Position numbers and translations under genes: made by a program. This document shows positions 43,284 through 61,702 of a stretch of 64,000 bases of DNA, one piece after another (within the stretch, counting starts at the first letter, position 1; each line of letters opens with the position of its first letter). Source of the stretch: an uncultured Flavobacteriaceae bacterium (GTDB taxonomy: Bacteria; Bacteroidota; Bacteroidia; Flavobacteriales; Flavobacteriaceae). The notes beneath the pieces were generated by a model, which was not told the origin of the DNA, did not search any database, and saw only the letters and a program-made list of their open reading frames with translations. The stretch is from NCBI GenBank assembly GCA_947503005.1, contig CANNCA010000010.1, positions 1 to 64,000 on the forward strand. The letters are read 5' to 3'.

Positions 43284-43350
43284 CATAAATAATAAGTGTT
43301 TAATCAGATGACGAAAGCCAAAAACTTCGGCATCACAAAACCCGGAAATC

Positions 43351-43938: not shown

Positions 43939-43940
43939 GG

Positions 43941-44783: not shown

Positions 44784-44839
44784 CACCCGCAGGCAAGTTA
44801 TGCATGAGGTTATTAATGTAAATATGAAAACATATAAAA

Positions 44840-45454
44840 ATGAAACTACCGTATAAGAACATTTATGATGTACTCAAATTGAACCGCTATGTGACGATTA
44901 TAGTAACTGTTACAGCACTTTTATCAAGCGTATTTTCAGGGGTGATGGTGTTCAATATGTACCAAAAAGCGATGGATAGTGCTTTTGCCGTGAATACCGA
45001 CGGTTCCGTTATTCCTTTGAAATTGGTATCCCAAAAGGAAAATCTTCAAGTAGAGGCCTTGTCACATTTGCAACTGTTCCATGAATACTTCTACGGTATC
45101 GATGACAGTAACTATGAAAGCAATTTGGAGAAATCCCTTTGGCTTGGAAATAGTACAGTTGACAATGTCTATCGGCAGAAAAAGGCCGATGGAGTGTACA
45201 ACCGGATATTGCAATATTCCCTGGTCCAGAAAGTACTCAGTGTTGAATCACAAGTGGATTTAAAGGCCGAACCTTATCGCTTTAAAACTATCACAGTTTT
45301 TGAAATCAATAGGGGCTCTGTCATTGATCGCTATGAAATGGTTTCAACAGGTGGACTTATTACAGTAGACCGAAACTATCCCAAGAACACACATGGTCTG
45401 CTGATTACCGATTATTTCGAGAATTCCCTAAAAAAGGTAAAAGAGCTGGAGTGA
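44840..45454 (+). CDS. traK: Conjugative element protein TraK (VirB8-like)
   Basis: 204 residues. A short cytoplasmic N-terminus (MKLPYKNIYDVLKLNRYV) and one membrane helix (VTIIVTVTALLSSVFSGVMVF) are followed by a periplasmic NTF2-like domain. This is the VirB8 topology. The next gene begins 21 bases later. Positions match the CTnDOT gene order J-K-(L)-M-N, with no separate TraL seen. Confidence 0.88.
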   Translation: MKLPYKNIYDVLKLNRYVTIIVTVTALLSSVFSGVMVFNMYQKAMDSAFAVNTDGSVIPLKLVSQKENLQVEALSHLQLFHEYFYGIDDSNYESNLEKSLWLGNSTVDNVYRQKKADGVYNRILQYSLVQKVLSVESQVDLKAEPYRFKTITVFEINRGSVIDRYEMVSTGGLITVDRNYPKNTHGLLITDYFENSLKKVKELE

Positions 45455-45475
45455 ATTGAACTTAAAAAACGAGCT

Positions 45476-46414
45476 ATGAAAATGGACAAAAAGAAAATAG
45501 TGTTTGCAGCGGTCATCGGTGTTGTCATTTTGTTCATCATCGGTTATTCGGTCTTTGTATTGGGTGAGGATGATGAAAGTGCCAACGAACTCCAACAGAC
45601 TTTGGTGCCCGAACTAGAAGATGGGGAGGATATGTACTCCTCCAAAAAGGTAGCAGTGGATGCCATAAAAGATGAAAGGGAACGGATTGCACCCAGTATT
45701 TATGACGAGCGTTTCTTAGATGAATCGGGAATATACGATGAAGACCTTTTGGACAAAAAGAAACAGCGTATCGTAGATAGCATATACCGAATCGGTCGTA
45801 TAGATTACTCCCAAGATTCTACAACTTCGGGAACCCGAAAACCATTACGTAAAAAGCGAAGAAAGAAAAGCGAGGTAATCGATACAAAGGACACTATTTC
45901 GCCATTGAAGGCAATGGGTCTGGAGCATCAATTGTTCTTTGCGGTGAGTCCTCAAGTTTTGGCAGATGGCACTGGCGAATCTTTGGTAGTCGAGATCGAT
46001 GGGGAACAGACCATAAGGGTAAATGACCGGCTACAGTTGCGGGTAACCGAAAACACTACTATCCAAGGTTTGGAAATCAAAAAAAACACCCTGCTCTACG
46101 GAATTGTAAAGTTCCGGCCCAATCGGGTCATATTAAATGTGGAAAATATAGGGGGAGTTCCGCTGAAGCTCAAGGCCTATGATAACGCTGATGGATTGGA
46201 AGGCATTTACATACGAAACAGTTTTCGGGGCGATGTTTTTAACGAGGTCTTGGGCGATGCGATTGTAGAATTCAATATTCCCGGCGTTCCTGATGTTTCA
46301 GGGGCGGTCAATACTGGGGTAAGTGGAGTAAAAAAAGTATTCCAACGCAATAACCGTAACGTCAAGGTTACGGTCAACAACAATTATAAACTCATTTTAA
46401 AACCAAAGCTATGA
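45476..46414 (+). CDS. traM: Conjugative element protein TraM (VirB10-like)
   Basis: 312 residues. An N-terminal membrane anchor (KKIVFAAVIGVVILFIIGYSVFVLG), a charged region rich in basic residues (RKPLRKKRRKKSE) and a C-terminal beta-rich domain (LFFAVSPQVLADGTGESLVVEID and KNTLLYGIVKF) are the VirB10/TraM plan. It bridges inner and outer membranes in the transfer channel. Confidence 0.88.
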   Translation: MKMDKKKIVFAAVIGVVILFIIGYSVFVLGEDDESANELQQTLVPELEDGEDMYSSKKVAVDAIKDERERIAPSIYDERFLDESGIYDEDLLDKKKQRIVDSIYRIGRIDYSQDSTTSGTRKPLRKKRRKKSEVIDTKDTISPLKAMGLEHQLFFAVSPQVLADGTGESLVVEIDGEQTIRVNDRLQLRVTENTTIQGLEIKKNTLLYGIVKFRPNRVILNVENIGGVPLKLKAYDNADGLEGIYIRNSFRGDVFNEVLGDAIVEFNIPGVPDVSGAVNTGVSGVKKVFQRNNRNVKVTVNNNYKLILKPKL

Positions 46415-46451
46415 GAGCCCATAATGGGCATTAATTCTAAAAAAGATAGTT

Positions 46452-47276
46452 ATGAAAACAGAGATATTAACGATTATGGTTCTTTTGACATTTTTTTTAA
46501 GCATTGGTCAAGAGACAAAGAAACTGGATACCATTTATGCCAATGAAAAAATGAACTTGGCCCTTTTTTTCCCTACGAACATTCGTCAGGGAATTGTCGG
46601 TGCAACTAACTTTGTCTTTAGTTATAATCGGGAACGCGCACAACCTTTGGGGCTTTTAAAGGCAACCAAGGGAAATCAAAGTAATCTGTTAGTGGTCACT
46701 ACTGATGGCAAGGTATATTCATACATTATCAAATATGCCGATTCCTTGAAGGAGATGAATCGTTTTGTTTCCTTTTCGGAAAGTATCGGGCACGAACATC
46801 AAAGGGAGTCTCTTGTAATTCGTGATACCATACAACTGGATTCCAATCTGGTGGTACATAAGCAATACCCAAAAGCGTTTTTGGAAAAATCATCAAAAGC
46901 AATGCTCAAGCAACCGGAACGAAAGAATATTATCAAGCGAAAAGAAGGGATGTCATTGGCCATAAAGAATATGGTCTATTTCGAGGATTTGGTCTTTATG
47001 CAGTTCGAGATCAAGAACGAATCGGGTATTGATTTTGACATTGACTATCTGAAAGTAGCGATGGTCATAGGTAATGAGAAACGCAGAGCTTCATATCAAT
47101 CCGTACCGCTTAGGCCTCGATATGTTTATAAAATGCCTGAAAAAACTAGGCATGCGGAGACTTCAAGGTTTGTTTATGTACTACCGAAATTTACTTTGGG
47201 CGATAATGAGAAACTGGAATTAAGGCTAAAGGAATTGAAAGGGAATCGGGAAATGATACTAAGAAGAAGATTATAA
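46452..47276 (+). CDS. traN: Conjugative element protein TraN (DUF4138, VirB9-like)
   Basis: 274 residues with a signal peptide (LTIMVLLTFFLSIGQ). The beginning LDTIYANEKMNLALFFPTNIRQGIVGATNFVFSYN and the later MVYFEDLVFMQFEIKNESGIDFDIDYL are the family segments. It is the outer-membrane-side partner of TraM. Last gene of the visible tra operon; TraO to TraQ do not follow. A SRAP gene lies opposite after 15 bases. Confidence 0.88.
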   Translation: MKTEILTIMVLLTFFLSIGQETKKLDTIYANEKMNLALFFPTNIRQGIVGATNFVFSYNRERAQPLGLLKATKGNQSNLLVVTTDGKVYSYIIKYADSLKEMNRFVSFSESIGHEHQRESLVIRDTIQLDSNLVVHKQYPKAFLEKSSKAMLKQPERKNIIKRKEGMSLAIKNMVYFEDLVFMQFEIKNESGIDFDIDYLKVAMVIGNEKRRASYQSVPLRPRYVYKMPEKTRHAETSRFVYVLPKFTLGDNEKLELRLKELKGNREMILRRRL

Positions 47277-47291
47277 GTAAATAGGACGGAA

Positions 47292-48065
47292 TCAAAAATC
47301 GATTGCCAATTCTTCGTACACAACCTTCTCGATAATGTCAGGTCTATCACTATCGGCCTTATGTAGGTCCTTGCTTATGGGCCAGGTTTTAAATTCAAAG
47401 TCGGGCAGGTCGTTGTCCAGAATATCGATTAGGTCATCTTGGTCCAGGTCGTCCTCTAGCCAGTATTCAGCTTCGCCGTCTTCAAGTACTACAGGCCTTC
47501 TATAATCTCCATATTTGTTGCTAGGTTGATTATGTATGTCTTCGAACAAAGGGGTTGCCTTTTTGGTAAAAATAGAGAAAGTGACCATTTTATCTTTGGT
47601 AACATTATAAATACCTGCAAGGTTCATCGGTTTGTCTTTTATTCTTCTAAAGTAGAACGGAACCTTAAAAGGTTTTCCTTTGACCTTTGCCGGAGTGGTA
47701 TGTGGCTCGAAAAAACCATCAACGGGAATTATGCATCGCTTGGTAAAAACATTGTCGCCGTACATGTAATGATTGAATACATCTTCAGACCTGAGATTTA
47801 GTCCACCGTAGGCCCCACGGTTGTTCTTGAAATACTCTTTGAATTCAGTACCTTCTGCAGTAGAGGGCATAATACCCCATTTTGCCGGAATCATATGACC
47901 CTTTCGCTGTTGGGGAAGAATCCACATATTGGGGTGTGCCCAGCCGTTGGCATGATTGTATATTAATTCGTATTCTTTTTCTTCCTGTTCCCCTAACAGT
48001 CTTTCAATTTCATAATAATCCTCTAACTCTCCGACCTTTCTTGTAGCTCTCGTACTGTAGCACAT
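47292..48065 (-). CDS. SOS response-associated peptidase family protein (SRAP, YedK/HMCES-like)
   Basis: 257 residues. The catalytic cysteine is C2, exposed after loss of the initiator methionine (MCYSTRAT). The other conserved parts are PAKWGIMP near 80, N-L-R-S-E, IPVDGFFEPH near 135 with the active glutamate, and EDIHNQPSN carrying the histidine. The family forms a thiazolidine bond with abasic sites in single-stranded DNA and so shields them. It sits opposite to the tra operon. In a conjugative element it could protect the transferred single strand. That is an inference. Confidence 0.9.
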   Translation of the reverse strand: MCYSTRATRKVGELEDYYEIERLLGEQEEKEYELIYNHANGWAHPNMWILPQQRKGHMIPAKWGIMPSTAEGTEFKEYFKNNRGAYGGLNLRSEDVFNHYMYGDNVFTKRCIIPVDGFFEPHTTPAKVKGKPFKVPFYFRRIKDKPMNLAGIYNVTKDKMVTFSIFTKKATPLFEDIHNQPSNKYGDYRRPVVLEDGEAEYWLEDDLDQDDLIDILDNDLPDFEFKTWPISKDLHKADSDRPDIIEKVVYEELAIDF

Positions 48066-48180
48066 AACAAATCGCGTTTATTTAAATTTCAATTTACTGA
48101 AAATTGTTAAAGTTTTAAAAGTATAAAAAAGGAATGATATATTTGGAATAATTCCATAAAATAGGAATATATCCATAAGT

Positions 48181-48447
48181 ATGTTTGTTCACAATATTGT
48201 TTTTAGAAATAATGATCGGTTCGCCATTACTACTCTTTTACGGGAGATAGGCGAAAATACCTTGAACCATCATTGTTGGAACAGGAAGCTCAATAAGCCC
48301 AGACGCCTCAATCAATTTTTTTTAGAGGCAAACGAGCACGGAACAAGGCTAAAATATAGATACCCCCAAAAAGGAGTTCATACCATTATGGAAGTTGATA
48401 AATATGAACTTCCAGAATGTGGATGGATCAGGGTAAAAGTCAAATGA
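48181..48447 (+). CDS. Hypothetical protein, first of a coupled pair
   Basis: 88 residues. It begins MFVHNIVFRNNDRFAITTLL, is basic in the middle (CWNRKLNKPRRLNQFFLEA) and ends with GWIRVKVK. No family is recognised and there is no signal or membrane segment. Its TGA overlaps the ATG of the following gene (ATGA), which supports both as real genes. It lies between the SRAP gene and the cargo border hairpin. Confidence 0.5.
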   Translation: MFVHNIVFRNNDRFAITTLLREIGENTLNHHCWNRKLNKPRRLNQFFLEANEHGTRLKYRYPQKGVHTIMEVDKYELPECGWIRVKVK

Positions 48448-48782
48448 AAAAGAAAACAGATGTTAGGACCATTTATATTGGAATGCGAAAACTAGACTTG
48501 ATTGAAGGGCTTACGATTAAAAAGTATCTACCTGAAGGAATACTAAAGAGGGTCCATATGGCCATGGATGATCAGGGATTGGAATGGAGGGATGAAATAA
48601 TCGAAGACTGCACTATGGTTATTTCTAATAAAGTGCATATTTCGGTCATGTACAAATACGATGCCCTACGATTTAAAGGCTTATTGCTCTTTTGTTTTAT
48701 GGACGAACCCAAACATGATTATCGGTTCTCGTTTCCTTTGAAGCAGTTTCATATTGAATACTATACAAGAACAAAATATTGA
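48444..48782 (+). CDS. Hypothetical protein, second of a coupled pair
   Basis: 112 residues from the ATG at 48444 that overlaps the stop of the gene before. Charged, without signal peptide. Segments MRKLDLIEGLTIKKYLPEGI and VHISVMYKYDALRFKGLLLF suggest an alpha/beta fold. No family is recognised. It is followed directly by the hairpin at 48817 that borders the cargo. Confidence 0.5.
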   Translation: MKKKTDVRTIYIGMRKLDLIEGLTIKKYLPEGILKRVHMAMDDQGLEWRDEIIEDCTMVISNKVHISVMYKYDALRFKGLLLFCFMDEPKHDYRFSFPLKQFHIEYYTRTKY

Positions 48783-48816
48783 AAGTATTACAAGAACGAT
48801 TTTACCACTTTTTTAA

Positions 48817-48850
48817 AACTCTTTACAAAAAGCGGATTTTGTAAAGAGTG
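48817..48850. repeat. 34-bp hairpin element, left border of the cargo
   Basis: AACTCTTTACA, nine bases, then TTTTGTAAAGAGTG, forming a stem of about 10 bp. The same two arms with the same 9-base spacing occur at 57863-57896. It can also act as a terminator for the gene before it. Confidence 0.8.
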
Positions 48851-48942
48851 CTAGTTTCTTGAAGTATGTTCTAGGGGTTAAATTGCTATTCAGGAACTAC
48901 TTCCAAGAAGCATAATGTAAAGAGTTCCTGAAAGAAAACTAG
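48851..48942. repeat. Nested inverted repeats next to the border hairpin
   Basis: An outer pair CTAGTTTCTT (48851) / AAGAAAACTAG (48932-48942, one extra A) encloses an inner pair CAGGAACT (48891-48898) / AGTTCCTG (48923-48930). A further TGTAAAGAGT at 48915 repeats the border sequence. No coding frame covers it. It may be a structured RNA or the remains of recombination at the border. Confidence 0.6.
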
Positions 48943-49042
48943 AAAACGGGTCACAAGCAAATACCCTATAAATATCAATCTTCACAAATTTCTAAAGAAT
49001 ACTTAAAATATTAAGTAGGTTTGGATTACATCTGCGTAGAAA

Positions 49043-50794
49043 TTATTTTCGCTTTTTTGAAAGTTTTCCAAAATCTAGGAGTTGTTTGAAAATACCTCCA
49101 TCTTTATTCAATAAATATTCAGGTATTGCTGGTGCTGTAATCTTTCTTCTGATATATTGGTCGAGAGTGAGAAACGGAGCATACTTTTTTCTTGATAGTT
49201 CTACATTTGTGCTATCTGCATACCCCTGAAGAAATCGGTCTAATTTCACTTTTCTTTTATTAAGTGCCTCTTGTAACCTTTCTAATTCACTAATATGAAG
49301 TACTACTAATCTATTAATTCTCCACATAGAACTTTCTCGTTCTATTCCAAAATCTGCTAACATCTGCTGAAACTTTTGATTGAAAATAAATGTCGTTATA
49401 GCGAATGATATAATTGGCTCATTAATTAATAAAACGGGATATATAAACAATTTGTTTTTAGGCAGGTTTGAATCTATGATTGAAGCATACTCATCAAATT
49501 TATTGATTGACATTTCAACAATCTGATTCAATCCAAACCTGTCATAAAACTCATCTTTATCCAAATCATTAAAGTCTTTCAAGGAGTATACTTCTTTGTA
49601 ATCAACTTGCGGGACATAAGATCGTTTTGCCTGAACCAACACAATATTCCGTTTTCTGCGGATGTAATAATCAGCATACTCCTTCCCTGCTATAAGCAGT
49701 TGATCAGTTGATTTAAAAAAGATGTCTTTATGACCCTCAAAACAATAGTTGAAAACGCCTTTGGTGTATTCTTCAAAGAACAAACCGACATCACCTCCCC
49801 ATGTTTCGATCCGTACGCCCTCTTTTTTTAATACATCAAAATAAAAATCCCAAAAGAATAATTCATAAGACTTTTCTATCAAAAACGTATTATCCAGTAA
49901 TATATATATGTTTGTTTCTTCTCCTTCTATAAAGTATAAAGGGGATTTTTTAATCTCTAAAAATTCAAATTTTTTTATACCCGTATTAGGTTTTCCCAAA
50001 CCTCTCTTACTGAGAGCATTTAATCTTTCAATTGCCAGTTTATCTGCTTTCTTTACCCGGTAGGCTTGAATAAAACCCATGCCTGAATTAAATACAAAAT
50101 GATTTGCTATAACGCTAAGTAAATGTTCCGGTGAATCAAGTTGATAGTCTTTCGTGAAATTATCCAATTCCGTCTTATACCTACCCTTTAAAAATTCAAA
50201 TAACTGTCTTCCTCGCTCTAAAAGATTGATTGGATTTTGAATATAACTATATTGATTGCTCGGTATTTCCTTAAACATAAAAGCTTCAAAAAAATCTCCT
50301 CCAAGTTTGTCCGAGGTTATTTCATCGTCATAAGATTCATTATAAGAAAGCATTTCATGGTTGCATAGCAGAAGAAACTTAAAAATTGCCAAATAGTCAT
50401 CGGGGTAGAACTTAATACCTGGCTTTTCTTCAAATTCTAGCTTATCACAAAAGAGAATTTCGTTTAATGCATAAAGACAGCTGGTTCTAGTACTTAAAGT
50501 TGCACCACCTTTGTAAGCATCAAAATGCTCTTTAAATCTGTCAATATGCGTTTTACAATATTCTATGCCACGCGGTTCTTCATGAAGATGATAAAGTGTA
50601 CTAATAATTTTGATTTGATTCTCATAAGAGAAATTAAAATCTAAATCTAAAGGCTTTTTTAAAAGATGATTTATTGAAGAGAAAGATGCAATGAGTTCAA
50701 CACGTGGGATATATTTAATTATATCAAATTTATCTGGAGGCATCGGTTGATTGAAAAAATCTTCATATTTCAGTATGGTTCCAATCATATCCAT
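49043..50794 (-). CDS. Uncharacterised protein with a QxK-type PD-(D/E)XK nuclease-like core
   Basis: 583 residues, no signal peptide. Most of the chain is not recognisable. The C-terminal half holds a plausible nuclease core: E341/E342 (LFFEEYTKGVF), then D375 in EYADYYIRRKR and Q388-A-K390 at the end of a strand (NIVLVQAKRSY). That arrangement, E then D then QxK with a preceding beta strand, is the Mrr-like form of the PD-(D/E)XK fold. The end is basic (LLDFGKLSKKRK). It is the third gene of a minus-strand operon (nuclease-NTPase, GIY-YIG, this gene), 33 bases after the second. I infer a part in defence. The nuclease call rests on motifs alone. Confidence 0.6.
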   Translation of the reverse strand: MDMIGTILKYEDFFNQPMPPDKFDIIKYIPRVELIASFSSINHLLKKPLDLDFNFSYENQIKIISTLYHLHEEPRGIEYCKTHIDRFKEHFDAYKGGATLSTRTSCLYALNEILFCDKLEFEEKPGIKFYPDDYLAIFKFLLLCNHEMLSYNESYDDEITSDKLGGDFFEAFMFKEIPSNQYSYIQNPINLLERGRQLFEFLKGRYKTELDNFTKDYQLDSPEHLLSVIANHFVFNSGMGFIQAYRVKKADKLAIERLNALSKRGLGKPNTGIKKFEFLEIKKSPLYFIEGEETNIYILLDNTFLIEKSYELFFWDFYFDVLKKEGVRIETWGGDVGLFFEEYTKGVFNYCFEGHKDIFFKSTDQLLIAGKEYADYYIRRKRNIVLVQAKRSYVPQVDYKEVYSLKDFNDLDKDEFYDRFGLNQIVEMSINKFDEYASIIDSNLPKNKLFIYPVLLINEPIISFAITTFIFNQKFQQMLADFGIERESSMWRINRLVVLHISELERLQEALNKRKVKLDRFLQGYADSTNVELSRKKYAPFLTLDQYIRRKITAPAIPEYLLNKDGGIFKQLLDFGKLSKKRK

Positions 50795-50827
50795 TCAAAT
50801 AATGCAACTAAGTTAATATATCAGACT

Positions 50828-51415
50828 TTAGTGCGTTTTAAATGAATTATAGTAATGCAATTTAAGTTCTACAGCTAAATATACTTCAAATAGATAAAGC
50901 TCTATTGAGCTATTTATGGCCAACATTGATACTTGGCACTCCTCCTTCAGCAACTTCTTAAATGGACCAGAATACATATTAAAATCCAATTCATTTCTTG
51001 TGCCTGTGTGTTTTAGATTTAATAATTCGAAATGATGCTGTTTACCCATTTTATAACTTAAGGAAGACGAGAAGTGATTTACACCTTTAACATGTTGATG
51101 AATTCGCTTTATTACACCACGAGAGATTCCAGTATAAAAAGGTTCGTGATGATGCCAAAATAAATAAATACCCTTGAAGTCCTTTTCTTTTATTAGTTCA
51201 GAAATTGTAGATTTCAGAAGTTCTCTCGACGCAACCTTTCCGATTCCTTTTTTACCAAATGTGTCGTAAATACTTATAATACTTGATGTTTCAATCAAAC
51301 TTTGCAGCATTAAGGGAAAGGCTTTAGTGATTTCCTTAAAGTCTCGTATATCTTCTGGTTCAAAATCAGATGGCCAGTTTCTATTTAGTTTTATTTTGGG
51401 TTTTATTGTTGACAT
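50828..51415 (-). CDS. GIY-YIG nuclease domain protein
   Basis: 195 residues from the ATG at 51415. The frame is open 12 codons further upstream, into the preceding gene. The nuclease motif is GIYLFWHHHEPFYTGISRGV (about 104-123), i.e. G-I-Y then F-Y-T-G in place of Y-I-G. It is followed by the conserved R in VIKRIHQHV. A late glutamate is in SSIELYLFEVYLAVEL, which fits the metal-binding Glu of the family, and an Asn follows in YYNSF. The N-terminal 90 residues are of unknown type. Middle gene of the operon, 19 bases after the nuclease-NTPase stop codon. Confidence 0.7.
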   Translation of the reverse strand: MSTIKPKIKLNRNWPSDFEPEDIRDFKEITKAFPLMLQSLIETSSIISIYDTFGKKGIGKVASRELLKSTISELIKEKDFKGIYLFWHHHEPFYTGISRGVIKRIHQHVKGVNHFSSSLSYKMGKQHHFELLNLKHTGTRNELDFNMYSGPFKKLLKEECQVSMLAINSSIELYLFEVYLAVELKLHYYNSFKTH

Positions 51416-51434
51416 AATAATCACTCTCTTAAAC

Positions 51435-54400
51435 TTATTCGAAACTCTCATTTACTCTTGTGCTGCGTTCCTCCTCCCATTCCCTATGTCTTTCAATTTC
51501 GGTTAAAAAAACCGGATATTCGGAAATAGCCCAAGTCCTAACTATTTCTATAGGATTATCCTGAAGTATTGAGAGCAATACTTTTCTTTTTTCTAAGACA
51601 TTAACCAGTGAACTGCTCATCATAGTTTGAGAAAGTGAGTATTTCATTTCCTTCAGAATTTCTACTTTATTTGGAGCCTTTTTTAAAATTTGATATACCA
51701 ATGGTTTCCAATCCAATTTTCCCTCTTTATTCTGGCCAAAACAATCAATAACTTCAATGATACGGGGGTATCTAAGTTGAGGGTTTATTTGACACCAGTT
51801 CAAGATGGTTTTATCTGATATTTTACTAAGTGGAGCATCGTGCCGCTCGAAGTTATTTCTGAAGATAAGTCGATGCCGATAGTTTTCAAATGGTTGCTCC
51901 CCAAGAAATGTATCTAAAAAAACGTTTGCCTGTAATTCTGCCAAACATTGAAAATATTTTCTATAGTTCGATGGATAAAGATGATTATTCTCAATAGAAC
52001 GATAAGCATTTTCACATACACTTGTGGACTCCGTAAATCCATATTCCGCCTGCAAGCAAACAGAAGCTATTTTAGTGAGGGCATAATCCAAATGACTGTG
52101 AGTTCTGACATCTTCCTCAAATGGATAATTTGAAAGAAAGTCATAAGCTTCTGAAATAATTTCATTATTTCTAAACCTCTTGTCATTTTTACTTTCGAGT
52201 TTATAATAAAACAGATCAGCAACAACAGAACTCCCACCTACTTTCTTTCGTAATTTACGAATTACTTGTACAAAATTTTTGCTCGATAATGACCCTTGAT
52301 TAATTCCCGAGTCTATTCGCATGTAAGTCCATAACAAGGTTAATTCCCCGTCTAAGGATTTCTTAATACGTTTCAGTCCAGCGGGGTCTAATTTTGAGAC
52401 ACATTGAAATAATGGAAACCAAGGCCTCATACAATGATCTGGTAACAAAATATCATCCAAAAACTGGTTATACAGCACCTTATCAAGCTCCGCCAATTGA
52501 GCCATATAACCGAGCATAACATTATACTGCCGTGCGGACTTTTCAGTTTTATCGCATTGTTCAATTAGACACTTCCACATAACAGTTTTGTTCTTTGTTC
52601 CAAATGCCAAGCCCTTACCAAATTGATATAGTCGTGGAGCATTAGTAGATACAAGGTCTGGGAGTAAGCATTTGAAACCCTTTGCGTCTAAAGCCAGTTT
52701 AGTCCCTAAATCGAAAGTAATTCCATCTATGCGCTTGTGGTAAGTTTCATAATCCTCCGTCTCTGAATAGTCATCTGTAATGTCGAATCTACCTAGGTGT
52801 TGATTATTTAATGCGAAAACCTTTACTTGATTTATTAAATTATTCGGCTTTAAAAAATCTACTAGCGATTTTATTTTATCAATAGTCTTCTTTTCAAGTT
52901 CTTTGGAGTCATATCTCTTTATTTCCTTAAGAGCCAACCAACCTTGATTCCAACTATCTTTTAGATGCATCTCTCTTATTTTATCATCTATTTCATCCAA
53001 AATTCTTACTTGAGTTATTAACCCCCTGATATTATTGGCAAGTACTTGTCTAACTTTTTTAGCCAGGCCAGTATTGAAATTGGCAAAATCAAAACAAATA
53101 CCAACAAAAGCTTCATACCAATTCACAATTTCAGTCTTTGTTTTAGGTTGGTAACCATAATCCCTAGATCTGGCTCCAAAAGATTGTACAATTCCTCCGC
53201 TAAAATGCCAGGTTTTCATTGCCGATTCTAGTAACAGTACTCCGAGATTTTGACGATCTACATTACTAGAGGCCAGAAGACCCCTAATAATTTTTGCTCG
53301 TTGCTGCAGAGATGCATGAGTACCAGAAAGATATAATTGGAAGAGAACTTTTAAAACGTTTCTTGTTGAATCTACATTCTCCTTTTCATTTTCGGATAGA
53401 GCAAAACGAATAATAATTTCAACACTTTCATTAAAAAATTGAGGATCATATGAGATAAAGTTTAAAATCCTTACAAACTCAACATGATGGTTATTCTCCC
53501 TCGATGTAAATAACTTGCCATCGACGTTAGTGGCAGCTTCGACTATTCTTTTTAGAGTCGATTCTGGATCTATTGAGGACAAATTTTTAAACAACGTCAA
53601 TCCAGTCCTATTGAAATTAACTGTAGAAGAACCTATCCACCCATCTGCAGCCAACCAATCCCTGGCAATAGTAAGAGCATTTTCGTTTTCATGAAGATAC
53701 GATAGTCTTCTTGTAAACGAAATTATCATACGTTCGGGGGATCGTTGGAAAATTCTTGAAATAACATCGGTTGGTATAGTAAGTAAAGCACGATTGGCCA
53801 GTCTATTGGAAATTGCGTGAGGTAATATTGCTCTCCAAATACTACGAGTTTGAATTAGATCCCTGTCCTTAAGTATGGCAACATTTCTGAATAACTCAGA
53901 TGGAGATACTTCAATGAGTGATGCAAGGATACTCAATTCTGACTTTGGATTATCTATTTCAGTTCCCTCAAACGAATAAACTAATGAGCAGACTTCAGCA
54001 CATTTTAAAAGTGTCTCGCTTCTATCATTTCGTTGGCTGAATAGCCTATTAAACAATTCTTCATCACGTAACCCAGATATCGACTCTCCTTTATTAAGCG
54101 TATTGGCCAATGCTAAAGCAACTCTTGAGTTACCTCCAGAAAAATCAGCTATCATTCTGGCATCTAGATCACTTATAAAGTCGAACCTTCTTTTTATTAG
54201 TTTATAAATAATTTCCAACCCCGAAGGTTCTAATCGAAATACCTCAGTTTCCTCGGGCAAATCGTCCCTTACATCATATTCGATAGTCAATAGACTTAAT
54301 TTGCTTGTTGGTTTTGAGCAAACTTTAGTAAGTCTTCTGTGTAAATCAGGAGGGCAGTTATCAACAATAATAGTGGCTTTTCTAGAAGTCGCAAGCAATT

Positions 54401-55268
54401 GTTCAGCCACGGATACCGGATCCGGTTTTGGGCTATCAGAAATATCTGTATATATAACATTAGATGGGTTCAAAGCTTGCTTACCTATCCTCTCGTCAAA
54501 AAGAGCCTGAGCAAATCTTGTTTTACCAACACCAGATAATCCGGTAAGCCTAATCGAGCTTCTTGTTTTGCTTAACAGGATTCTAAGTTCTGAGATTCCC
54601 TCCTCTATCGAAACACCTTCATTTTTTTTTTTAATTCCGCTAAAAAATCTGGAAGACTCGTCAATTAGATACTCATCCAAAACTCCATCTGGAGAATTAC
54701 ACCAATTTTCAAATTGTCTCCAGCCGCTCATTGGCAGCCCAATTTTGTTATGAACCCATATAATACAAGAAGGATGTTCTCTAACCCAACTTGCTATCCG
54801 TCCTCTATCGTAAAAGTCAATGAATAATTTACTATCCGTATCATCTGACAAGGTCGAATCCCGCATCGCTTTTAGGCGACTTTGTAAAGTCAAATGGGTT
54901 AGATTCTCGCCGGAACTAATTATTACATAAGCACCGTTATTATTTATAAGAGTCTTGATTACATCTCTTAAATTACCTTTTGGCCGCATTTCAGATAGTA
55001 TAGATGATCTTGGCATCTTGGGTTTTTTGACCTGAAAACCTGTGAATTTTCTAGGAACAAAACCGTTTTTAGGAGGTTTGAACTTACTTTTAACTACTAC
55101 ATCCAATCCTCCATCCGAGGCATCTTGGTTTCCGCCCCAAAGGATTCCATTACAAGATAGATCTGCCTTTCTAAAATCTGCTTCACATAAAAGGCCTATC
55201 AATTCTCTAAGTTGAGAATCGTTAAGTTTTACAATATGCTCTCCTGTTATTTCTAAAAGTGATTCCAT
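51435..55268 (-). CDS. Large nuclease-NTPase fusion (Mrr-like nuclease plus STAND-type P-loop NTPase), putative defence protein
   Basis: 1,277 residues. The N-terminal domain (about 1-120) has an Mrr-like core: E29, D52/D56 in SDGGLDVVV and Q79-V-K81 in FTGFQVKKP. A linker with WVREHPSCIIWVHNKIGLPMSGW follows. The NTPase begins near 235 with Walker A TGLSGVGKT (242-250) and Walker B ATIIVDNC (D303). A winged-helix-like part follows (near 400-480), then about 750 residues of helical, probably repeat-like sensor region without a named domain. A sensor-switch-effector layout like this is typical of STAND immune proteins such as Avs, but the C-terminus does not let me assign a known type. First gene of the operon, divergent from the retron. 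Confidence 0.7.
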   Translation of the reverse strand: MESLLEITGEHIVKLNDSQLRELIGLLCEADFRKADLSCNGILWGGNQDASDGGLDVVVKSKFKPPKNGFVPRKFTGFQVKKPKMPRSSILSEMRPKGNLRDVIKTLINNNGAYVIISSGENLTHLTLQSRLKAMRDSTLSDDTDSKLFIDFYDRGRIASWVREHPSCIIWVHNKIGLPMSGWRQFENWCNSPDGVLDEYLIDESSRFFSGIKKKNEGVSIEEGISELRILLSKTRSSIRLTGLSGVGKTRFAQALFDERIGKQALNPSNVIYTDISDSPKPDPVSVAEQLLATSRKATIIVDNCPPDLHRRLTKVCSKPTSKLSLLTIEYDVRDDLPEETEVFRLEPSGLEIIYKLIKRRFDFISDLDARMIADFSGGNSRVALALANTLNKGESISGLRDEELFNRLFSQRNDRSETLLKCAEVCSLVYSFEGTEIDNPKSELSILASLIEVSPSELFRNVAILKDRDLIQTRSIWRAILPHAISNRLANRALLTIPTDVISRIFQRSPERMIISFTRRLSYLHENENALTIARDWLAADGWIGSSTVNFNRTGLTLFKNLSSIDPESTLKRIVEAATNVDGKLFTSRENNHHVEFVRILNFISYDPQFFNESVEIIIRFALSENEKENVDSTRNVLKVLFQLYLSGTHASLQQRAKIIRGLLASSNVDRQNLGVLLLESAMKTWHFSGGIVQSFGARSRDYGYQPKTKTEIVNWYEAFVGICFDFANFNTGLAKKVRQVLANNIRGLITQVRILDEIDDKIREMHLKDSWNQGWLALKEIKRYDSKELEKKTIDKIKSLVDFLKPNNLINQVKVFALNNQHLGRFDITDDYSETEDYETYHKRIDGITFDLGTKLALDAKGFKCLLPDLVSTNAPRLYQFGKGLAFGTKNKTVMWKCLIEQCDKTEKSARQYNVMLGYMAQLAELDKVLYNQFLDDILLPDHCMRPWFPLFQCVSKLDPAGLKRIKKSLDGELTLLWTYMRIDSGINQGSLSSKNFVQVIRKLRKKVGGSSVVADLFYYKLESKNDKRFRNNEIISEAYDFLSNYPFEEDVRTHSHLDYALTKIASVCLQAEYGFTESTSVCENAYRSIENNHLYPSNYRKYFQCLAELQANVFLDTFLGEQPFENYRHRLIFRNNFERHDAPLSKISDKTILNWCQINPQLRYPRIIEVIDCFGQNKEGKLDWKPLVYQILKKAPNKVEILKEMKYSLSQTMMSSSLVNVLEKRKVLLSILQDNPIEIVRTWAISEYPVFLTEIERHREWEEERSTRVNESFE

Positions 55269-55282
55269 TTAGTATAGTTTCG

Positions 55283-55290
55283 CAAAATTA
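55283..55290 (-). promoter_or_regulatory. Candidate -7 element of the nuclease-NTPase operon
   Basis: The minus strand reads TAATTTTG, a match to TAnnTTTG, 14 bases before the start codon. A TTG lies 21 bases further upstream (55314-55312). The leader would be very short. The AATACT-ACA-AGTATT palindrome close by (from 55305) could be an operator. Confidence 0.45.
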
Positions 55291-55494
55291 ATTGTACTAC
55301 TTACAATACTACAAGTATTAAACTTATATGAGTATTCTTACAAAAGTAAGTTATGTAATTTCTCGATTTAATGGAACTTATTATTAGTTTTAAACCAATA
55401 CATAGAGTACACAGAATTAATATATTATTTGAGTTGTAAAGTATGTTAAGTCAAATTAATCGATGATATAACAAGTTGCCAGCAAACTAAATAA

Positions 55495-56349
55495 ATGACT
55501 ACAATAGAATCAATAAGAGAATTAACCAAAATATTTGAAAGCAAAAAATGGCCTGAAATAGACATTGAACAATATGTGTTTGATAATTTCTGCAAACTGT
55601 TAGATAATGTGAAAAACAGTGAACGAGAATTAATAATTGAATTAGTTGAAAGATATCAATGGATTTCTTATTCGGAATATCAAGGGAAAATTCTTTCAAC
55701 TTTAGAAAGTGTAGAAAATGAAAAATTAGAAAAATTAAAAACAATATATTTCTTTCCAGTAATTAAACTCGATGATGAAGGCGGTTATAAAAGTGGGCAA
55801 TTGCTCATCTACTTGATAAAAGCATTTAAAAAGCACTTAACAAAATACACAGATATCAAATTTAAATTAGTTTCAAAATTTGAACATTTAACTGATTCAA
55901 AATTTACACTTAAAGAGAATGAAGCTATTTTCTTGATTGATGACTATATTGGTTCTGGAGAAACATTAAAGGAATGTCTTAAAGTAATTAAGAGCAATAA
56001 AAATATTACAAACGAGAAATTAAACATAGTATCTATTGCAATTCAAAAAGAGACCTCAGACATTATTACAAAAGAAGGTATTTCTATATATTCAGATTAT
56101 TTTTCACCAAGGGGATTGAGTGATTTTAATGATTCGCCTATTCTGGAAGAGAAAATAAAAGTTATGCTTGAAATCGAAAAGTTGATACCAGGTGGCCATA
56201 ATTTCAGCTTAGGCTACAATAAATGTGAGGCACTAATAACACTTGTGAGAACACCGGATAATACTTTTCCAGTTTTTTGGATGAAACATAGAATCGGAAA
56301 AAAATACTTTGACGCTCCTTTTTCAAGAGAAGAAACATTTGAAACATGA
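55495..56349 (+). CDS. Retron-associated phosphoribosyltransferase-like effector
   Basis: 284 residues. The central strand-loop IFLIDDYIGSGETLKECL (145-162) is the PRPP-binding loop of the type I phosphoribosyltransferase fold: two acidic residues after a hydrophobic strand, then a G-S-G-E-T loop. The rest is not typical of nucleotide-salvage enzymes: helical N-terminus (about 1-85) and a C-terminal extension with SDYFSPRGLSDFND and GGHNFSLGYNKCEALITLVRTPDNTFP. Proteins of this type are the effectors in PRTase (type III) retrons. The winged-helix gene overlaps its stop (ATGA), and the RT follows. Target unknown. Confidence 0.75.
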   Translation: MTTIESIRELTKIFESKKWPEIDIEQYVFDNFCKLLDNVKNSERELIIELVERYQWISYSEYQGKILSTLESVENEKLEKLKTIYFFPVIKLDDEGGYKSGQLLIYLIKAFKKHLTKYTDIKFKLVSKFEHLTDSKFTLKENEAIFLIDDYIGSGETLKECLKVIKSNKNITNEKLNIVSIAIQKETSDIITKEGISIYSDYFSPRGLSDFNDSPILEEKIKVMLEIEKLIPGGHNFSLGYNKCEALITLVRTPDNTFPVFWMKHRIGKKYFDAPFSREETFET

Positions 56350-56660
56350 TTAATAGAAGAGAAACGTTATTACTCAATATTATTGAGAATTCAGGAAATG
56401 TTAAAAAATTATTGAGAGAGAATCTATCCTATAAGGAAATTTCAGAACTCACAGCCAAGTTAGAACAAGATGAACTACTGAGTTATGTTGACAAGAAAAT
56501 AATCTTAACAGAAAAAGGCAAAACAGCTTTAACCGATAACAAACATCTACTAAAAGAAACTAATAAAGAACTTTGGATACAACCTGAAGACAAAAGCAGA
56601 ATAAAAAAACATGAAAGAAATTTCATATATTTACCTAATCAAAATGAGCTTGATTTTTAA
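56346..56660 (+). CDS. Retron-associated winged-helix protein
   Basis: 104 residues. RRETLLLNIIENSGNVKKLLRENLSYKEISELTAKLEQDELL is a winged-helix DNA-binding segment, and the wing is SYVDKKIILTEKGKTAL (about 48-64). The C-terminal tail (DKSRIKKHERNFIYLPNQ) is basic. It is translationally coupled to the PRTase gene and ends directly before the structured RNA region. Probably it joins effector and retron RNA/DNA or controls the operon. Confidence 0.75.
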   Translation: MINRRETLLLNIIENSGNVKKLLRENLSYKEISELTAKLEQDELLSYVDKKIILTEKGKTALTDNKHLLKETNKELWIQPEDKSRIKKHERNFIYLPNQNELDF

Positions 56661-56820
56661 AAGAATTGGTTGGTGATGTCACCTTTCCAAATAGTGAACA
56701 TTCTTTCAAGCAGGCGAATTTTGGAAAGGCAAAATCGGAGATATTTCCCTTTCCAAAATTCTTATTCCGAACGGGGGCTCTGAGTAGTCCCCTGTTCATA
56801 AGGATAAAAACTCCCTTATG
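56661..56820 (+). ncRNA. Candidate retron msr-msd RNA
   Basis: A 164-base gap between the winged-helix gene and the RT is packed with inverted repeats. GAATTTTGGAAAGG (56716-56729) pairs perfectly with CCTTTCCAAAATTC (56748-56761). An upstream CCTTTCCAAA (56682-56691) competes for the same partner. AAGAATT (56661) can pair with AATTCTT (56757-56763), as the a1/a2 ends of a retron RNA would. A 9-bp GAACGGGG-type stem (56769-56797) and CATAAGG/CCTTATG (56797-56820) follow. The exact ends and the branching G cannot be fixed by eye. The RNA may end at 56763. Confidence 0.65.
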
Positions 56821-56824
56821 AAAT

Positions 56825-57844
56825 ATGACCGACCAACAGTTATATGTAAAAAAGTTTACGGAAAAAGCACTTGTAAACGGCTTTTCATCTGATTACGTAG
56901 AAAAGTGTTTGTCATATGCAAATCCACTATTAACTAATAATCTTCCTGTAGTATATAATATTTACCATTTAAGCGGTTTAGTTGGCTATAATGTTTCTTA
57001 TTTAAAACGCGCAGTAAAATTTCAAAAGTATTTTTATCGCAAGTTTGAAATTCTCAAACGTAATGGGAAGAAAAGAACTCTTTATGAGCCTCTGCCTAGC
57101 CTCAAAGAAATTCAATCATGGATTTTAGATGAAATTCTATATAAATGCAAAGTTAGCAGATATGCAAAGGCATATGTGCCAAAACGGAGTATTAAAGAAC
57201 ATACAAGATATCACACTGATGAACCATTCGTGCTTACTTTGGACATAAGGGAGTTCTTTAGGAGTATTAAATTTGAATTAGTTGAAAGCCTTTTCCACAA
57301 TATGGGTTATTCAATAAGACTGTCTAATTTGCTTACTAAACTTTGCTTTTTAGAAGATGAATTACCTCAAGGAGCGTCAACTAGTCCATATATCTCGAAT
57401 CTAATTATGCAGGATTTTGACAATGAAATTTCAAAATATTGTATTTCCAATGATATAAAATATACGAGATATGCAGATGACCTGGCTTTTTCTGGCAATT
57501 TAAAAGCCGATGAAGTTGAAGAATTAGTTAAAGGCGAATTATCTAAAATAGGGCTTGAATTAAATGATGAAAAAAGAAAATTGATGAAGCCTAATCAACC
57601 ACAACTGGTATCAGGTGTTATCGTTAACAAAAAAGCACAATTACCGAAAAAGGTTCGTAATTCGTTAAGGAATGAAATGTATTACATCCAAAAGTTCGGA
57701 TTGGAAAATCATATGGAACGAACCAATCAAAAGAAACCGAATTACTTAAAACATTTATTGGGAAGAATTAATTATGTTTTACAAATTAACCCTCGCGACA
57801 AAGAATTTATTGAATACAGAAAGCATTTACACGAATTAATGTAA
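56825..57844 (+). CDS. Retron-type reverse transcriptase
   Basis: 339 residues. RT motifs in order: VLTLDIREFFRSI (D140), LPQGASTSPYISNL (180-193), YTRYADDLAFSG (YADD 216-219), and a late LVSGV at 261-265 in the place of the retron VTG motif. The length and compact form match retrons. No maturase or endonuclease domain is present, which speaks against a group II intron. It would make the msDNA from the RNA upstream. It starts 5 bases after the CATAAGG hairpin. A hairpin at 57863 ends the transcript. Confidence 0.93.
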   Translation: MTDQQLYVKKFTEKALVNGFSSDYVEKCLSYANPLLTNNLPVVYNIYHLSGLVGYNVSYLKRAVKFQKYFYRKFEILKRNGKKRTLYEPLPSLKEIQSWILDEILYKCKVSRYAKAYVPKRSIKEHTRYHTDEPFVLTLDIREFFRSIKFELVESLFHNMGYSIRLSNLLTKLCFLEDELPQGASTSPYISNLIMQDFDNEISKYCISNDIKYTRYADDLAFSGNLKADEVEELVKGELSKIGLELNDEKRKLMKPNQPQLVSGVIVNKKAQLPKKVRNSLRNEMYYIQKFGLENHMERTNQKKPNYLKHLLGRINYVLQINPRDKEFIEYRKHLHELM

Positions 57845-57862
57845 AGGATGTCGTAATAAATC

Positions 57863-57896
57863 AACTCTTTACAGAATGCACCTTTTGTAAAGAGTG
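57863..57896. repeat. 34-bp hairpin element, right border of the cargo
   Basis: AACTCTTTACA, nine bases, then TTTTGTAAAGAGTG: arms and spacing are the same as in 48817-48850, in the same direction, and only the 9-base spacer differs. It lies 19 bases after the RT gene and 20 bases before the stop of the coupling protein gene. Confidence 0.85.
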
Positions 57897-57916
57897 TACA
57901 ATTTGAATTTTTGATA

Positions 57917-59506
57917 CTATTTTTTTAGAATTTCTTTCACTTCCCGATGAATCTTCTCAAAATTCTCCTGAAGTTTTTCCTTTAAATTCCGGCCCGGCAA
58001 AGGCAACTTCCTAACAATCTTGGGTGTTTTGAACTGTACCTTTTTATCCTTTCCATCCGCCAATACCACAAAACCACCCTGTTGCAGTCCATAGAATACA
58101 TCGGCACGGGTCTTTGCTACTTCCCGTTCCCCTTTGGTCACACGGGTATCAAAGTTGAGGTTGTAGCCTTTGTTCACGCTCTTAGTCTCCTTCTTTACGA
58201 TTTCAAAAAAACGTTCGTAGTATTTGGCGGTATCGGGGTCGTTGGCCTTGCCAAAGAACTGATAGGACAAATTGGCCAAAATTGCTTTACTGGCCATAGG
58301 GCCGTATATCATATCGTTTTGAATCTTGTCCTGTAAAACATAGACCGTGGCAATATCATAACTGCGCAAGGTAGCAGGAATACGGTGCATATTCAATAAT
58401 CGCAAAGTAGCTGCTTCCTCCATCAACAAAAATGAAGGGTTTTGGTGGCGGACACTCATTTGTTTGGTCATGGTATGGATAATGGTGGCAATAACGGGTG
58501 AGAGGGACGTTTCGATTTTCGGGTTATTCACAACCGAAACAACAGCCAAATTATCTTTATGATTGATGTTCAAATCAACTTCATCGGCGGATAGTGCCAT
58601 AAAGATCCGTTGGGTACTGATCTTTTTAAAAGCATTGGCCAAAGTACTTTTGACCCCTGCGGTCTGCCGTTCGGAATCCACTCCGCTTATAAAGGCATCG
58701 GCCATCGCTTTTGAGGTAACATTGCCGGATAAGAACTCAATAAGTTGTGCCGTATTTAGATGTTGATATAGGGCAATCAAATGGGGCAGGGTACAGAACT
58801 TTTCAAAATCGGTTTTCAAACGCCATATCATGCCTCCGACCAGACCTTCTACCACATCATTAAAGAATCGGGTAGTGGCGTTCATGTTGTTATCCTTCTG
58901 TTCCAAGAGATTTTCCACCAGTACCCGTGAAAGCTCGTTGACACTTTCCTCATCGGGCAGGTATCTTGGCGCAATGGGATTGACCCTTGAATGAATGGTG
59001 TCGAAGGAAATGATAAAGAAGGGAATATCGCATTGGCTGAATAGGGGGTAGGCCATTTCGGTAATCTCAAAGTCTTTGTAATCATAGATGACCCCACTAA
59101 AGTTCCACTGGCTAAAATGATCCAAAAGCGGATAGACCACACTTTCCGTTTTGCCACTCCCCGCAGCCCCGATAATGGCGATACCCCTACGGATGTTTTC
59201 CAAAAGCAGCTTCCCTTTTGCGACTTGAAGCTTGACCCGGTACCTACCATTAGAATTCGATTCACTCTCCTTGGGAAAGAAAACATAAAAGAGGATGTTG
59301 ACAAATAACAATGGCAAACCAATGAGCAGAAGAACCAAAAGGAACTGCTTTTGATCTGGGGCATTTGACCATGCCCAAAACAATCCCAACCCGATCCAAA
59401 AGATATTGATAAAGAACCCCTCTTTGATGAAACGCGCCAAGAGAAAGCAAAGGCCGCTTCCAAAGAGCAGGGTCAAGACAACACGACTAAGATTTAATTC
59501 TTCCAT
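57917..59506 (-). CDS. mobC: Type IV coupling protein (MobC/TraG-VirD4 family)
   Basis: 529 residues. Two or three N-terminal membrane helices (FWIGLGLFWAW and FLLVLLLIGLPLLFVNILFYVFF) are followed by the ATPase part with Walker A GAAGSGKT (113-120) and Walker B SFLLMEEAATL near 345. The motif GVIYDYKDFEITEM is typical of the family. It brings the relaxase-DNA complex to the secretion channel. It lies 9 bases after the MobB-like relaxase gene. Confidence 0.9.
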   Translation of the reverse strand: MEELNLSRVVLTLLFGSGLCFLLARFIKEGFFINIFWIGLGLFWAWSNAPDQKQFLLVLLLIGLPLLFVNILFYVFFPKESESNSNGRYRVKLQVAKGKLLLENIRRGIAIIGAAGSGKTESVVYPLLDHFSQWNFSGVIYDYKDFEITEMAYPLFSQCDIPFFIISFDTIHSRVNPIAPRYLPDEESVNELSRVLVENLLEQKDNNMNATTRFFNDVVEGLVGGMIWRLKTDFEKFCTLPHLIALYQHLNTAQLIEFLSGNVTSKAMADAFISGVDSERQTAGVKSTLANAFKKISTQRIFMALSADEVDLNINHKDNLAVVSVVNNPKIETSLSPVIATIIHTMTKQMSVRHQNPSFLLMEEAATLRLLNMHRIPATLRSYDIATVYVLQDKIQNDMIYGPMASKAILANLSYQFFGKANDPDTAKYYERFFEIVKKETKSVNKGYNLNFDTRVTKGEREVAKTRADVFYGLQQGGFVVLADGKDKKVQFKTPKIVRKLPLPGRNLKEKLQENFEKIHREVKEILKK

Positions 59507-59515
59507 TGCTTTGAT

Positions 59516-60535
59516 TTAAATTCCTATTGATCCAGATTCGATGGCCCGTTGCATTCCCCGTCTCAATCTATGAAACACTTTTAGAGCCAATTGTACTTTA
59601 TTCGTGGGGATGGCCGGAATACGCATTCCAGATTTTGAAAGTAGTTTTAGGGCGAGGGCTTTTTCATTGGTAGGCAGGTTGCCCAAGAGCATCCGAAACT
59701 TAGCGGGATTTTTGATCAGGGTCTTCTTAGCGGTATAGGTTTCCACAAAGTTGCGGTCATAGCCAAAAACCCTATCAAAGGTCTGTTCTGCCTTTTCGAA
59801 GAATTGATCTCGATGGAAACCCCGTTGTACTTTTTTGCCGTGTATTTCAACTTCGGAGGCCTTGTATTTCGATCCAGGGGAAAGGCTAAAGGTATTGGTC
59901 ACATCCTTGCGGCTAACGATGATATGGATGTGGGATTGGTTGCCCTCTTTTTTCATTCCCACCACGATCATTTGGCCATTGATCTGATGTGGTGCGGCTT
60001 CTTTTAAAGCTGTGATTTCTTGCTCCAATTTTTTAATAGTTCCCTTCAATTCCCCACGCGCCACTTTTCGGATATCGTTCTGCAGTTTTGCAATCTGTTT
60101 TCTGTATGGGGCATTTTCCAGTACTTCTTTTTCAAACCCGCGATAGGTGCGTTCGTGTTCTATTTTGGCGAAGTATTTTATCTGATCGACCGTAATTGGT
60201 TTCTCTCTGTAAAAGGATTTGGCGTATTCCTTCATTAGTTCACGGGTATAGGTTTTTAAAGCTTCGGGATTGTTGGTTATTTTTTTGAGTTCACGTTGGC
60301 TCGGACTGACTACGATCGAATAAAATTTGGGTTCGGTTTTTTTGAGTTTTGCCGTATTGGCATCGATTTCTGAAATGACTTTATCGGGGGAAATCCGGTC
60401 CTCGGTCTGGTTGAAAAAATGCTCCTGATTTTCAGGTTCCAGATCTTCGTTTTCCTTTTCGAGATAGGCCACATAATCCGCCGCGCTGTTCGAATAACTT
60501 TGCCCTAATTTCTGTGGAGTGATCGCTATATACAT
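59516..60535 (-). CDS. mobB: MobB-like relaxase (DUF5712 type)
   Basis: 339 residues. The N-terminus MYIAITPQKLGQSYSNSAADYVAYLEKEN is the family start. The metal-binding histidines lie in SHIHIIVSRKD near residue 200, the HxH motif of relaxases. A coiled-coil stretch (KLEQEITALKE) lies in front of it. It should nick the origin of transfer and lead the strand to the recipient. It lies 1 base after the BfmA-like gene. The catalytic tyrosine cannot be assigned with certainty. Confidence 0.82.
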   Translation of the reverse strand: MYIAITPQKLGQSYSNSAADYVAYLEKENEDLEPENQEHFFNQTEDRISPDKVISEIDANTAKLKKTEPKFYSIVVSPSQRELKKITNNPEALKTYTRELMKEYAKSFYREKPITVDQIKYFAKIEHERTYRGFEKEVLENAPYRKQIAKLQNDIRKVARGELKGTIKKLEQEITALKEAAPHQINGQMIVVGMKKEGNQSHIHIIVSRKDVTNTFSLSPGSKYKASEVEIHGKKVQRGFHRDQFFEKAEQTFDRVFGYDRNFVETYTAKKTLIKNPAKFRMLLGNLPTNEKALALKLLSKSGMRIPAIPTNKVQLALKVFHRLRRGMQRAIESGSIGI

Positions 60536-60536
60536 T

Positions 60537-61106: not shown

Positions 61107-61122
61107 TTTGCAACAAACTTTT
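61106..61122 (-). repeat. 17-bp direct repeat, copy at the bfmA start
   Basis: TTTTGCAACAAACTTTT on the + strand, identical to 61149-61165. Start to start is 43 bases, about four helical turns, so a protein could bind both on one face. Confidence 0.8.
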
Positions 61123-61487: not shown

Positions 61488-61685
61488 TTACATCGAAAAT
61501 GTGAATTTGTAATTGTACAGGTTTCGGATGGCTTCCTCGTTTAGAAGTTCGCCGTAGTCCAGACCATTTTCAATGGCATATGATTTGAGATCTTTGCCAA
61601 ATTGTAGTTCGATTTCTTGTTTGGATTTGGACAGTAACCGCTCTTGGGTTTCCCCATCCAAGTTGTTGTAATTCAGATATACCAT
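61488..61685 (-). CDS. Small conserved hypothetical protein
   Basis: 65 residues, acidic, with a helical pattern (ETQERLLSKSKQEIELQFGKDL, then YAIENGLDYGELLNEEAIRNLYNYKF). No signal or membrane segment. Small proteins of this type lie beside radC in related elements. It begins 17 bases after the radC stop codon, so it belongs to that unit. Function unknown. Confidence 0.6.
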   Translation of the reverse strand: MVYLNYNNLDGETQERLLSKSKQEIELQFGKDLKSYAIENGLDYGELLNEEAIRNLYNYKFTFSM

Positions 61686-61702
61686 AATTCTAAGGTTTCA
61701 AA

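Follow-up and report, generated by a model that had tools for sequence, protein, structure and literature searches.

What kind of system, if it is a single system at all, is formed by three adjacent genes for nuclease-like proteins inside a mobile element of an uncultured Flavobacteriaceae bacterium? We studied these genes in a window of 64,000 nucleotides, which comprises positions 1 to 64,000 of contig CANNCA010000010.1 (98,951 bases; assembly GCA_947503005.1, 4.58 Mb in 31 contigs). All three lie on the minus strand, on which they are read in the order A (51435..55268; 1,277 amino acids [aa]), B (50828..51451; 207 aa, or 195 aa from the second ATG), and C (49043..50794; 583 aa). An initial annotation, made without database searches, had presented them as an uncharacterised three-gene operon and had suggested an anti-phage system. 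Its coordinates, gene order, and strand agree with the list of open reading frames (ORFs), as do its gaps of 19 bases between A and B and 33 bases between B and C, the former counted from the stop codon of A to the second ATG of B; the first ATG of B overlaps A by 17 bases. Its broader picture of three nuclease-like proteins in an apparent operon, within a mobile element and beside a retron, is in line with the PADLOC and Pfam matches.

The three genes look like a mosaic

The spacing of A, B, and C is compatible with one apparent operon, whose genes would be co-transcribed, and an anti-phage role of the locus is likely. This part of the initial annotation stands, whereas the notion of an uncharacterised three-part set does not, because the family of A already has a name. 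Co-occurrence of the three genes, which the initial annotation had proposed to count and whose lack it had named as a refutation of its view, was found nowhere else: within neighbourhoods of a few kilobases (kb), A had neither B nor C beside it at any of 43 other places, and neither of the other two genes was near B (0/14 clear places) or near C (0/8 clear places). With no second A-B-C copy in the places searched, we reject an established three-gene system, and the set looks like neither an established nor an unnamed one. Since B and C occur elsewhere with neither A nor each other, the three genes were joined here or in an unsampled relative. Given this lack of co-occurrence in our searches, A-B-C reads as a mosaic of a known sensor nuclease and two accessory genes that often accompany restriction genes. 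The restriction partners of B and C relatives share one feature with A, namely a nuclease joined to a nucleoside triphosphatase (NTPase), as in HsdR, type ISP enzymes, and PD-λ-4_A. With moderate confidence, we interpret the locus as a PD-λ-4-type sensor nuclease that lacks PD-λ-4_B and works with two gained accessory nucleases.

Gene A: a PD-λ-4-type protein

The product of gene A matches the PADLOC PD-Lambda-4_A model (PDLC03991) over residues 4-1277 with an E-value of 1.5e-298, and its identity to the A protein of Escherichia coli PD-λ-4 is about 32 per cent. PD-λ-4 was found by functional selection in E. coli (Vassallo et al. 2022, PMC9519451), and the layout of Mrr domain, STAND NTPase, and repeats is already in print (PMC9122126). 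With a full-length profile match and a published layout, the A family cannot be called unnamed, as the initial annotation had implied. Its call of the domains fared better: the alignment, a structural model, and Foldseek agree with the prediction that in A an Mrr-like nuclease is followed by a STAND-type NTPase and then by a long stretch of helices.

Specifically, the N-terminal nuclease carries D31, D56, and Q79-V-K81, the NTPase has a Walker A motif around K249 and the Walker B residue D303, and the C-terminus is helical. All 23 aligned A sequences, the window's included, are identical at D52, G54, D56, Q79, K81, G243, G246, G248, K249, R251, D303, and C305. The residues singled out by the initial annotation in A (D56, Q79-V-K81, K249) and in C (D375, Q388, K390) are all present, and their conservation in the alignments is beyond chance. 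Its E29 was mistaken for a conserved acid of A; the conserved acidic column in the alignment of 23 is 31, with D in the window and E as the commonest residue (19/23). Pfam yielded AAA matches only, below their cut-offs.

An AlphaFold model of residues 1-1190, for which the alignment held 16 of 17 relatives from viral contigs, has a mean predicted local distance difference test (pLDDT) score of 81.7 and a predicted template modelling (pTM) score of 0.56. It consists of an alpha/beta N-terminal part, a P-loop part, and helices from there to the end. When the model as a whole was compared to the Protein Data Bank (PDB) with Foldseek, the best match was the STAND-TPR protein 6mfv (E-value 4.5e-7); other matches included Apaf-1, CED-4, NOD2, NLRP2, and the AVAST5/EfAvs5 filaments, plus many helical-repeat proteins such as karyopherins. 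Because the template modelling (TM) scores are low (0.11-0.23 on the query), the structural match backs the layout of A and not a close relationship.

Compared to known systems, A has the same layout as its PD-λ-4 counterpart and the full-length profile match to it, whereas the window has no PD-λ-4_B beside A and carries GIY-YIG and C-type genes instead: none of the six cargo proteins matched PD-λ-4_B (PDLC03992) in PADLOC at an E-value of 0.1. The possibility that B or C is itself PD-λ-4_B was rejected, as neither has a PDLC03992 or blastp match. A resembles Avs and other STAND NTPase defence proteins in combining an effector domain, a STAND NTPase, and helical repeats, and its model matches STAND proteins and Avs5 filaments. 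It differs in that none of the PADLOC matches at an E-value of 0.1 bears an Avs name. A known Avs type, a match to which would have refuted the initial annotation by its own account, is therefore rejected for the A-B-C set. Avs systems are also not known to include GIY-YIG or C-type genes in addition.

Gene A is present in 43 of 72,556 plasmid records and in 15 of 395 genomes of the phylum (the window's own included); among 197 near-relative genomes, it occurs only in the window's own. Neither A nor B had a match among 50,697 phage records. A DNA search with an Enterobacter relative of A returned partial matches in 173 of 5,426 E. coli genomes, none over 80 per cent of the query. The 43 distinct A places that we inspected outside the window come from 14 plasmids (14 of the 43 A-bearing records), 10 phylum genomes with long flanks besides the window's own, 2 E. 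coli genomes, and 17 viral contigs, with neighbourhoods of mostly 4-8 kb per side, shorter at contig ends; split A genes (L058, L059, L083, L089) were counted unrepaired. PD-λ-4_B lies beside A at two of these places (L074 and L085; phmmer), so the PD-λ-4_B partner is itself a rare feature. In E. coli EC71, a full-length PD-Lambda-4_A match is followed by PD-λ-4_B as the next gene (by profile). At least three of the ten phylum genomes have a restriction gene adjoining A (a type IV enzyme, a type I R piece, and a type III methyltransferase), and no constant close partner emerged from the 24 places whose neighbours were listed. In E. coli STEC434 (L075, 7001-12613), the gene after the A relative encodes not PD-λ-4_B but a reverse transcriptase of AbiP2 type; the window, too, has a reverse-transcriptase defence system beside A.

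Gene B: a GIY-YIG protein with some relatives in type I restriction operons

Gene B matches Pfam PF01541 with an E-value of 4.1e-5 and a bit score of 24.2, above the cut-off of 22.6. Its catalytic motif residues are retained: G94, Y96, Y106, G108, R116, E189, and N202 are invariant in 10/10 aligned sequences, nine of them relatives about 30 per cent identical to the window protein, in which the YIG of the motif reads YTG. With these residues invariant, B looks active as a nuclease.

Clear B relatives were found at 14 places outside the window: on four plasmids, on five viral contigs, and in genomes G651, G615, G053, G110, and G026. The last four genomes belong to the window's own family, and in all four the B relative stands directly before hsdR, at a distance of 12 to 249 bases, in an operon in which hsdM and hsdS lie on its other side (HsdM, HsdS, and HsdR were identified by Pfam in G615, and by blastp to the G615 proteins in the other three). 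A profile search of 254 genomes gave matches in 100, of which four, including the window's, were clear (E-value 4.5e-29 or better). The next-best match had an E-value of 4.2e-7, and the weak ones, mostly ORFs of about 430-490 aa that we presume to be unrelated GIY-YIG proteins, were excluded, as were four further weak matches from the search that yielded G651 and G615. A weak PADLOC match of B to UzuA (E-value 0.0027) was not used.

The type I operons with a B relative (L077, L137, L138, L139) open with genes that look like sensor kinases or ATPases and response regulators, which is unusual for restriction; one HATPase_c match below the cut-off underlies these labels, and the rest were assigned by eye. 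Genes upstream of B elsewhere were considered as C relatives and rejected on chance-level scores. Two other neighbours match each other weakly (L076, 545 aa, versus L029, 500 aa; E-value 0.002).

Gene C: a putative PD-(D/E)XK-like nuclease

Gene C belongs to a family without a name, with no Pfam, NCBIfam, or strong PADLOC family match. Its PD-(D/E)XK-like core consists of E341, D375, and Q388-A-K390. In an alignment of seven sequences, E341, D375, and K390 are identical in 7/7, whereas at position 388 the four sequences closer to the window's have Q and the other three, which are more distant, have E. A further three relatives, remoter still, read D-x-Y...E-V/S-K (EVK or ESK). An exchange of Q and E at this core position is tolerated by PD-(D/E)XK sites. 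The conserved motif marks C as a putative PD-(D/E)XK-like nuclease, and the second QxK core that the initial annotation had seen is upheld in this respect, with Q or E at 388.

Relatives of C were drawn from a genome collection (3 loci), from the family (matches in 7 of 397 genomes), and from the order (matches in 3 of 296 genomes), the window's own genome being counted in the last two; the collection at large was scanned with C only. No match was found in the 72,556 plasmid records, and single-query scans of viral sequences with C, B, or A, as well as a C profile scan, returned nothing usable. Sequence searches of the PDB gave chance-level matches only. Weak PADLOC matches of C to HEC-02B (E-value 0.004) and of a Bizionia relative of C to Orf5 (E-value 0.0011) were not used.

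Outside the window, there are eight clear C places in seven genomes, and at four of these C lies in or behind restriction genes. The relatives in Maribacter aquimaris and Muriicola jejuensis overlap the gene before them at its end, by 59 bases in the former, where it is a type ISP gene, and by 4 bases in the latter, where it is hsdR, preceded by hsdM and hsdS. In genome G220, C begins 9 bases past hsdS (in the order hsdR, hsdM, hsdS) and lies a single base ahead of a PDC-M62-type AAA gene. In Bizionia myxarmorum, C comes after GmrSD-type genes and hsdR, from which it is separated by a YgjP gene and a 141-aa ORF; no hsdM or hsdS was seen among the genes scanned. Weaker matches in G408, G796, and G251 (E-values 4.9e-7, 1.2e-5, and 9.4e-4) stand outside the count of eight; the more distant relative in G408 follows AbiEi and AbiEii genes plus a 500-aa ORF. 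The two C copies of G345 (L026, 9293-11080, and L027, 9836-11578) lie at a distance of about 59 kb from each other, both surrounded by rows of small ORFs, and a 244-aa ORF is repeated within L026; these surroundings look like a gene-cassette array.

Proposed function and alternative explanations

If A, B, and C act together, the helical repeats of A would detect a phage product, and the STAND NTPase would then bind nucleotide and oligomerise, by which the Mrr domains would be brought together and cut DNA. B and C would add further cleavage, acting on the DNA that A has cut or stepping in as back-up effectors once the main system fails, and the infection would be limited or the cell killed. The back-up role is carried over by analogy from Dnd systems. 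According to PMC10853773, stand-alone URI/GIY-YIG and restriction endonuclease (REase) genes at the edges of Dnd operons are proposed to be back-up suicide effectors; such nucleases resemble B and C, by description only, in their position at the edge of a defence operon, and the core system differs from A. PMC10952713 lists GIY-YIG proteins for two further defence systems, PD-T4-3 and PD-λ-1. Closer to the window, accessory genes of the B or C family occur in related bacteria in some restriction-modification operons of type I or type ISP; the window cargo differs from them in that a scan of its proteins found no HsdM, HsdS, HsdR, type ISP, modification, specificity, or superfamily 2 (SF2) motor gene. 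Judged by titles and abstract openings, in a search that covered few subscription papers, no paper was found on B or C in an accessory role in type I operons, and we do not claim that they are undescribed in it; PMC8432527, in its excerpted part, is not about such genes.

Several observations weigh against cooperation of the three genes. B and C relatives are absent from all 43 other A places (some of these neighbourhoods end at contig ends), and joint action of the three genes, whose spacing fits an operon, is a proposal. So is the back-up role, which has been put forward in print for other systems and is not a result. At 10 of the 14 clear B places, no type I operon was seen in annotations and ORFs inspected by eye (the plasmid gene tables are incomplete), and some of these ten relatives sit, again by eye, amid phage structural genes, so B could be a free-standing mobile nuclease; one of the ten follows an SRA-domain gene, and another is about 3.4 kb from a dcm methylase gene. 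Four of the eight clear C places likewise show no restriction operon: two are the copies among small ORFs in G345, of which one precedes a cytosine methylase gene by about 1 kb, and the remaining two are near contig ends. Additionally, the nuclease fold of C remains putative, as the prediction reached a mean pLDDT of 34 from a four-row, too shallow alignment; C has no consistent Pfam match, and an hhalign comparison of its core to the nuclease domain of A was negative.

Some of these observations would be expected if the three genes were chance neighbours in a cargo hotspot, A being a complete one-gene defence and B and C unrelated cargo that acts, if at all, alone. This explanation is possible, though we find it rather doubtful. 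A does without B or C in 43/43 other places and without a constant close partner in the 24 that were listed, B and C each occur without A, and the hotspot exchanges cargo among related elements. However, A, B, and C share one strand with gaps of only 19 and 33 bases, and elsewhere several relatives of B and C are closely packed with the other genes of defence operons.

That same habit of B and C admits a different history, in which A took the place of the modification and motor genes of restriction-modification operons, and B and C are leftovers of these operons that no longer matter. We regard it as very unlikely: hsdM, hsdS, hsdR, and type ISP genes are indeed frequent neighbours of the two families and are missing from the window cargo, yet leftovers should lose their motif residues, whereas the B and C frames are full length and keep them, and B and C were not found together in one restriction operon. 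Free-standing GIY-YIG genes include homing enzymes, and B might be a self-spreading gene of this type, leaving defence to A plus C or to A alone. The occurrence of B relatives on plasmids and viral contigs with no constant partner would fit; their one fixed place just before hsdR in 4/4 clear relatives from the host family is unexpected for a homing gene, and we consider this origin of B highly improbable.

Under the interpretation that we favour, a PD-λ-4-type sensor nuclease assisted by B and C, the combination points to a possible exchange of accessory parts between the defence systems of bacteria. An NLR-like sensor could then re-use restriction-associated nucleases, and one small operon would allow tests of what the unexplained accessory genes in type I operons do. 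A bolder generalization, which is speculative and which we think unlikely to be right, makes B and C portable second-line effectors that plug into nuclease-NTPase defence operons (HsdR, type ISP, or the STAND protein PD-λ-4_A) and are triggered by failure or activation of the main system. If true, the locus would show a transfer of such parts from restriction-modification to an NLR-like system and would connect two classes of defence that have been treated separately until now. Two further additions come from the locus: a PD-λ-4 variant that lacks PD-λ-4_B, and the nuclease-like family of C, which has no Pfam or NCBIfam match and recurs in defence operons.

The conjugative element and its cargo site

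The cargo is carried by a conjugative element that was recognised by Pfam matches and tRNAs and that extends approximately over 33785..62152. An integrase gene (33785-35032) lies beside tRNA-Ser and tRNA-Pro. The Pfam-identified genes are those for TraG (40875-43283), TraM (45476-46414), a TraN-like DUF4138 protein (46452-47276), the coupling protein (57917-59506), a relaxase-like DUF5712 protein (59516-60535), and RadC (61703-62152). The interval between the TraN-like and coupling genes (47276-57917) holds a SRAP gene, small ORFs, A-B-C, and a divergent retron. The G+C content of the cargo is 0.30-0.36, lower than the 0.41-0.44 of the conjugation genes.

Related elements carry different genes at this junction (L118, L119, L120, L121). 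Genome G006 has a close relative of the right part of the element, with a relaxase-like protein 95 per cent identical and DNA 86 per cent identical over 57864-62771, and its junction is occupied, as judged by eye, by an AAA-looking 808-aa protein and a 151-aa ORF that looks GIY-YIG-like. By the same kind of inspection, there are Dnd-looking genes in G034, type I restriction-looking genes in G027, and three others in G030. Since related elements hold other genes there, the junction of the TraN-like and coupling genes looks like a cargo hotspot.

The retron (55495..57844, plus strand) is divergent from A-B-C and is a separate system, not part of it. That a retron adjoins A had been claimed by the initial annotation, and all three of its proteins match PADLOC models of type III-A: PRTase (55495-56349; PRTase_III-A, E-value 1.4e-90), winged helix (56346-56660; WH_III-A, 7.5e-34), and reverse transcriptase (56825-57844; RT_III-A, 6.5e-151). 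Rfam gave no msr-msd RNA match at the gathering score in 48500-58000, where two chance-level hits were seen. Between the winged-helix and reverse transcriptase genes, there is a strong hairpin (56716-56761) with 18-nt arms, 94 per cent complementary, and a 10-nt loop, which is a candidate part of the retron RNA. The whole defence cargo is flanked by a 22-nt inverted repeat (48905-48926 and 57863-57884; 82 per cent complementary), which may be a terminator pair, an insertion trace, or a product of chance.

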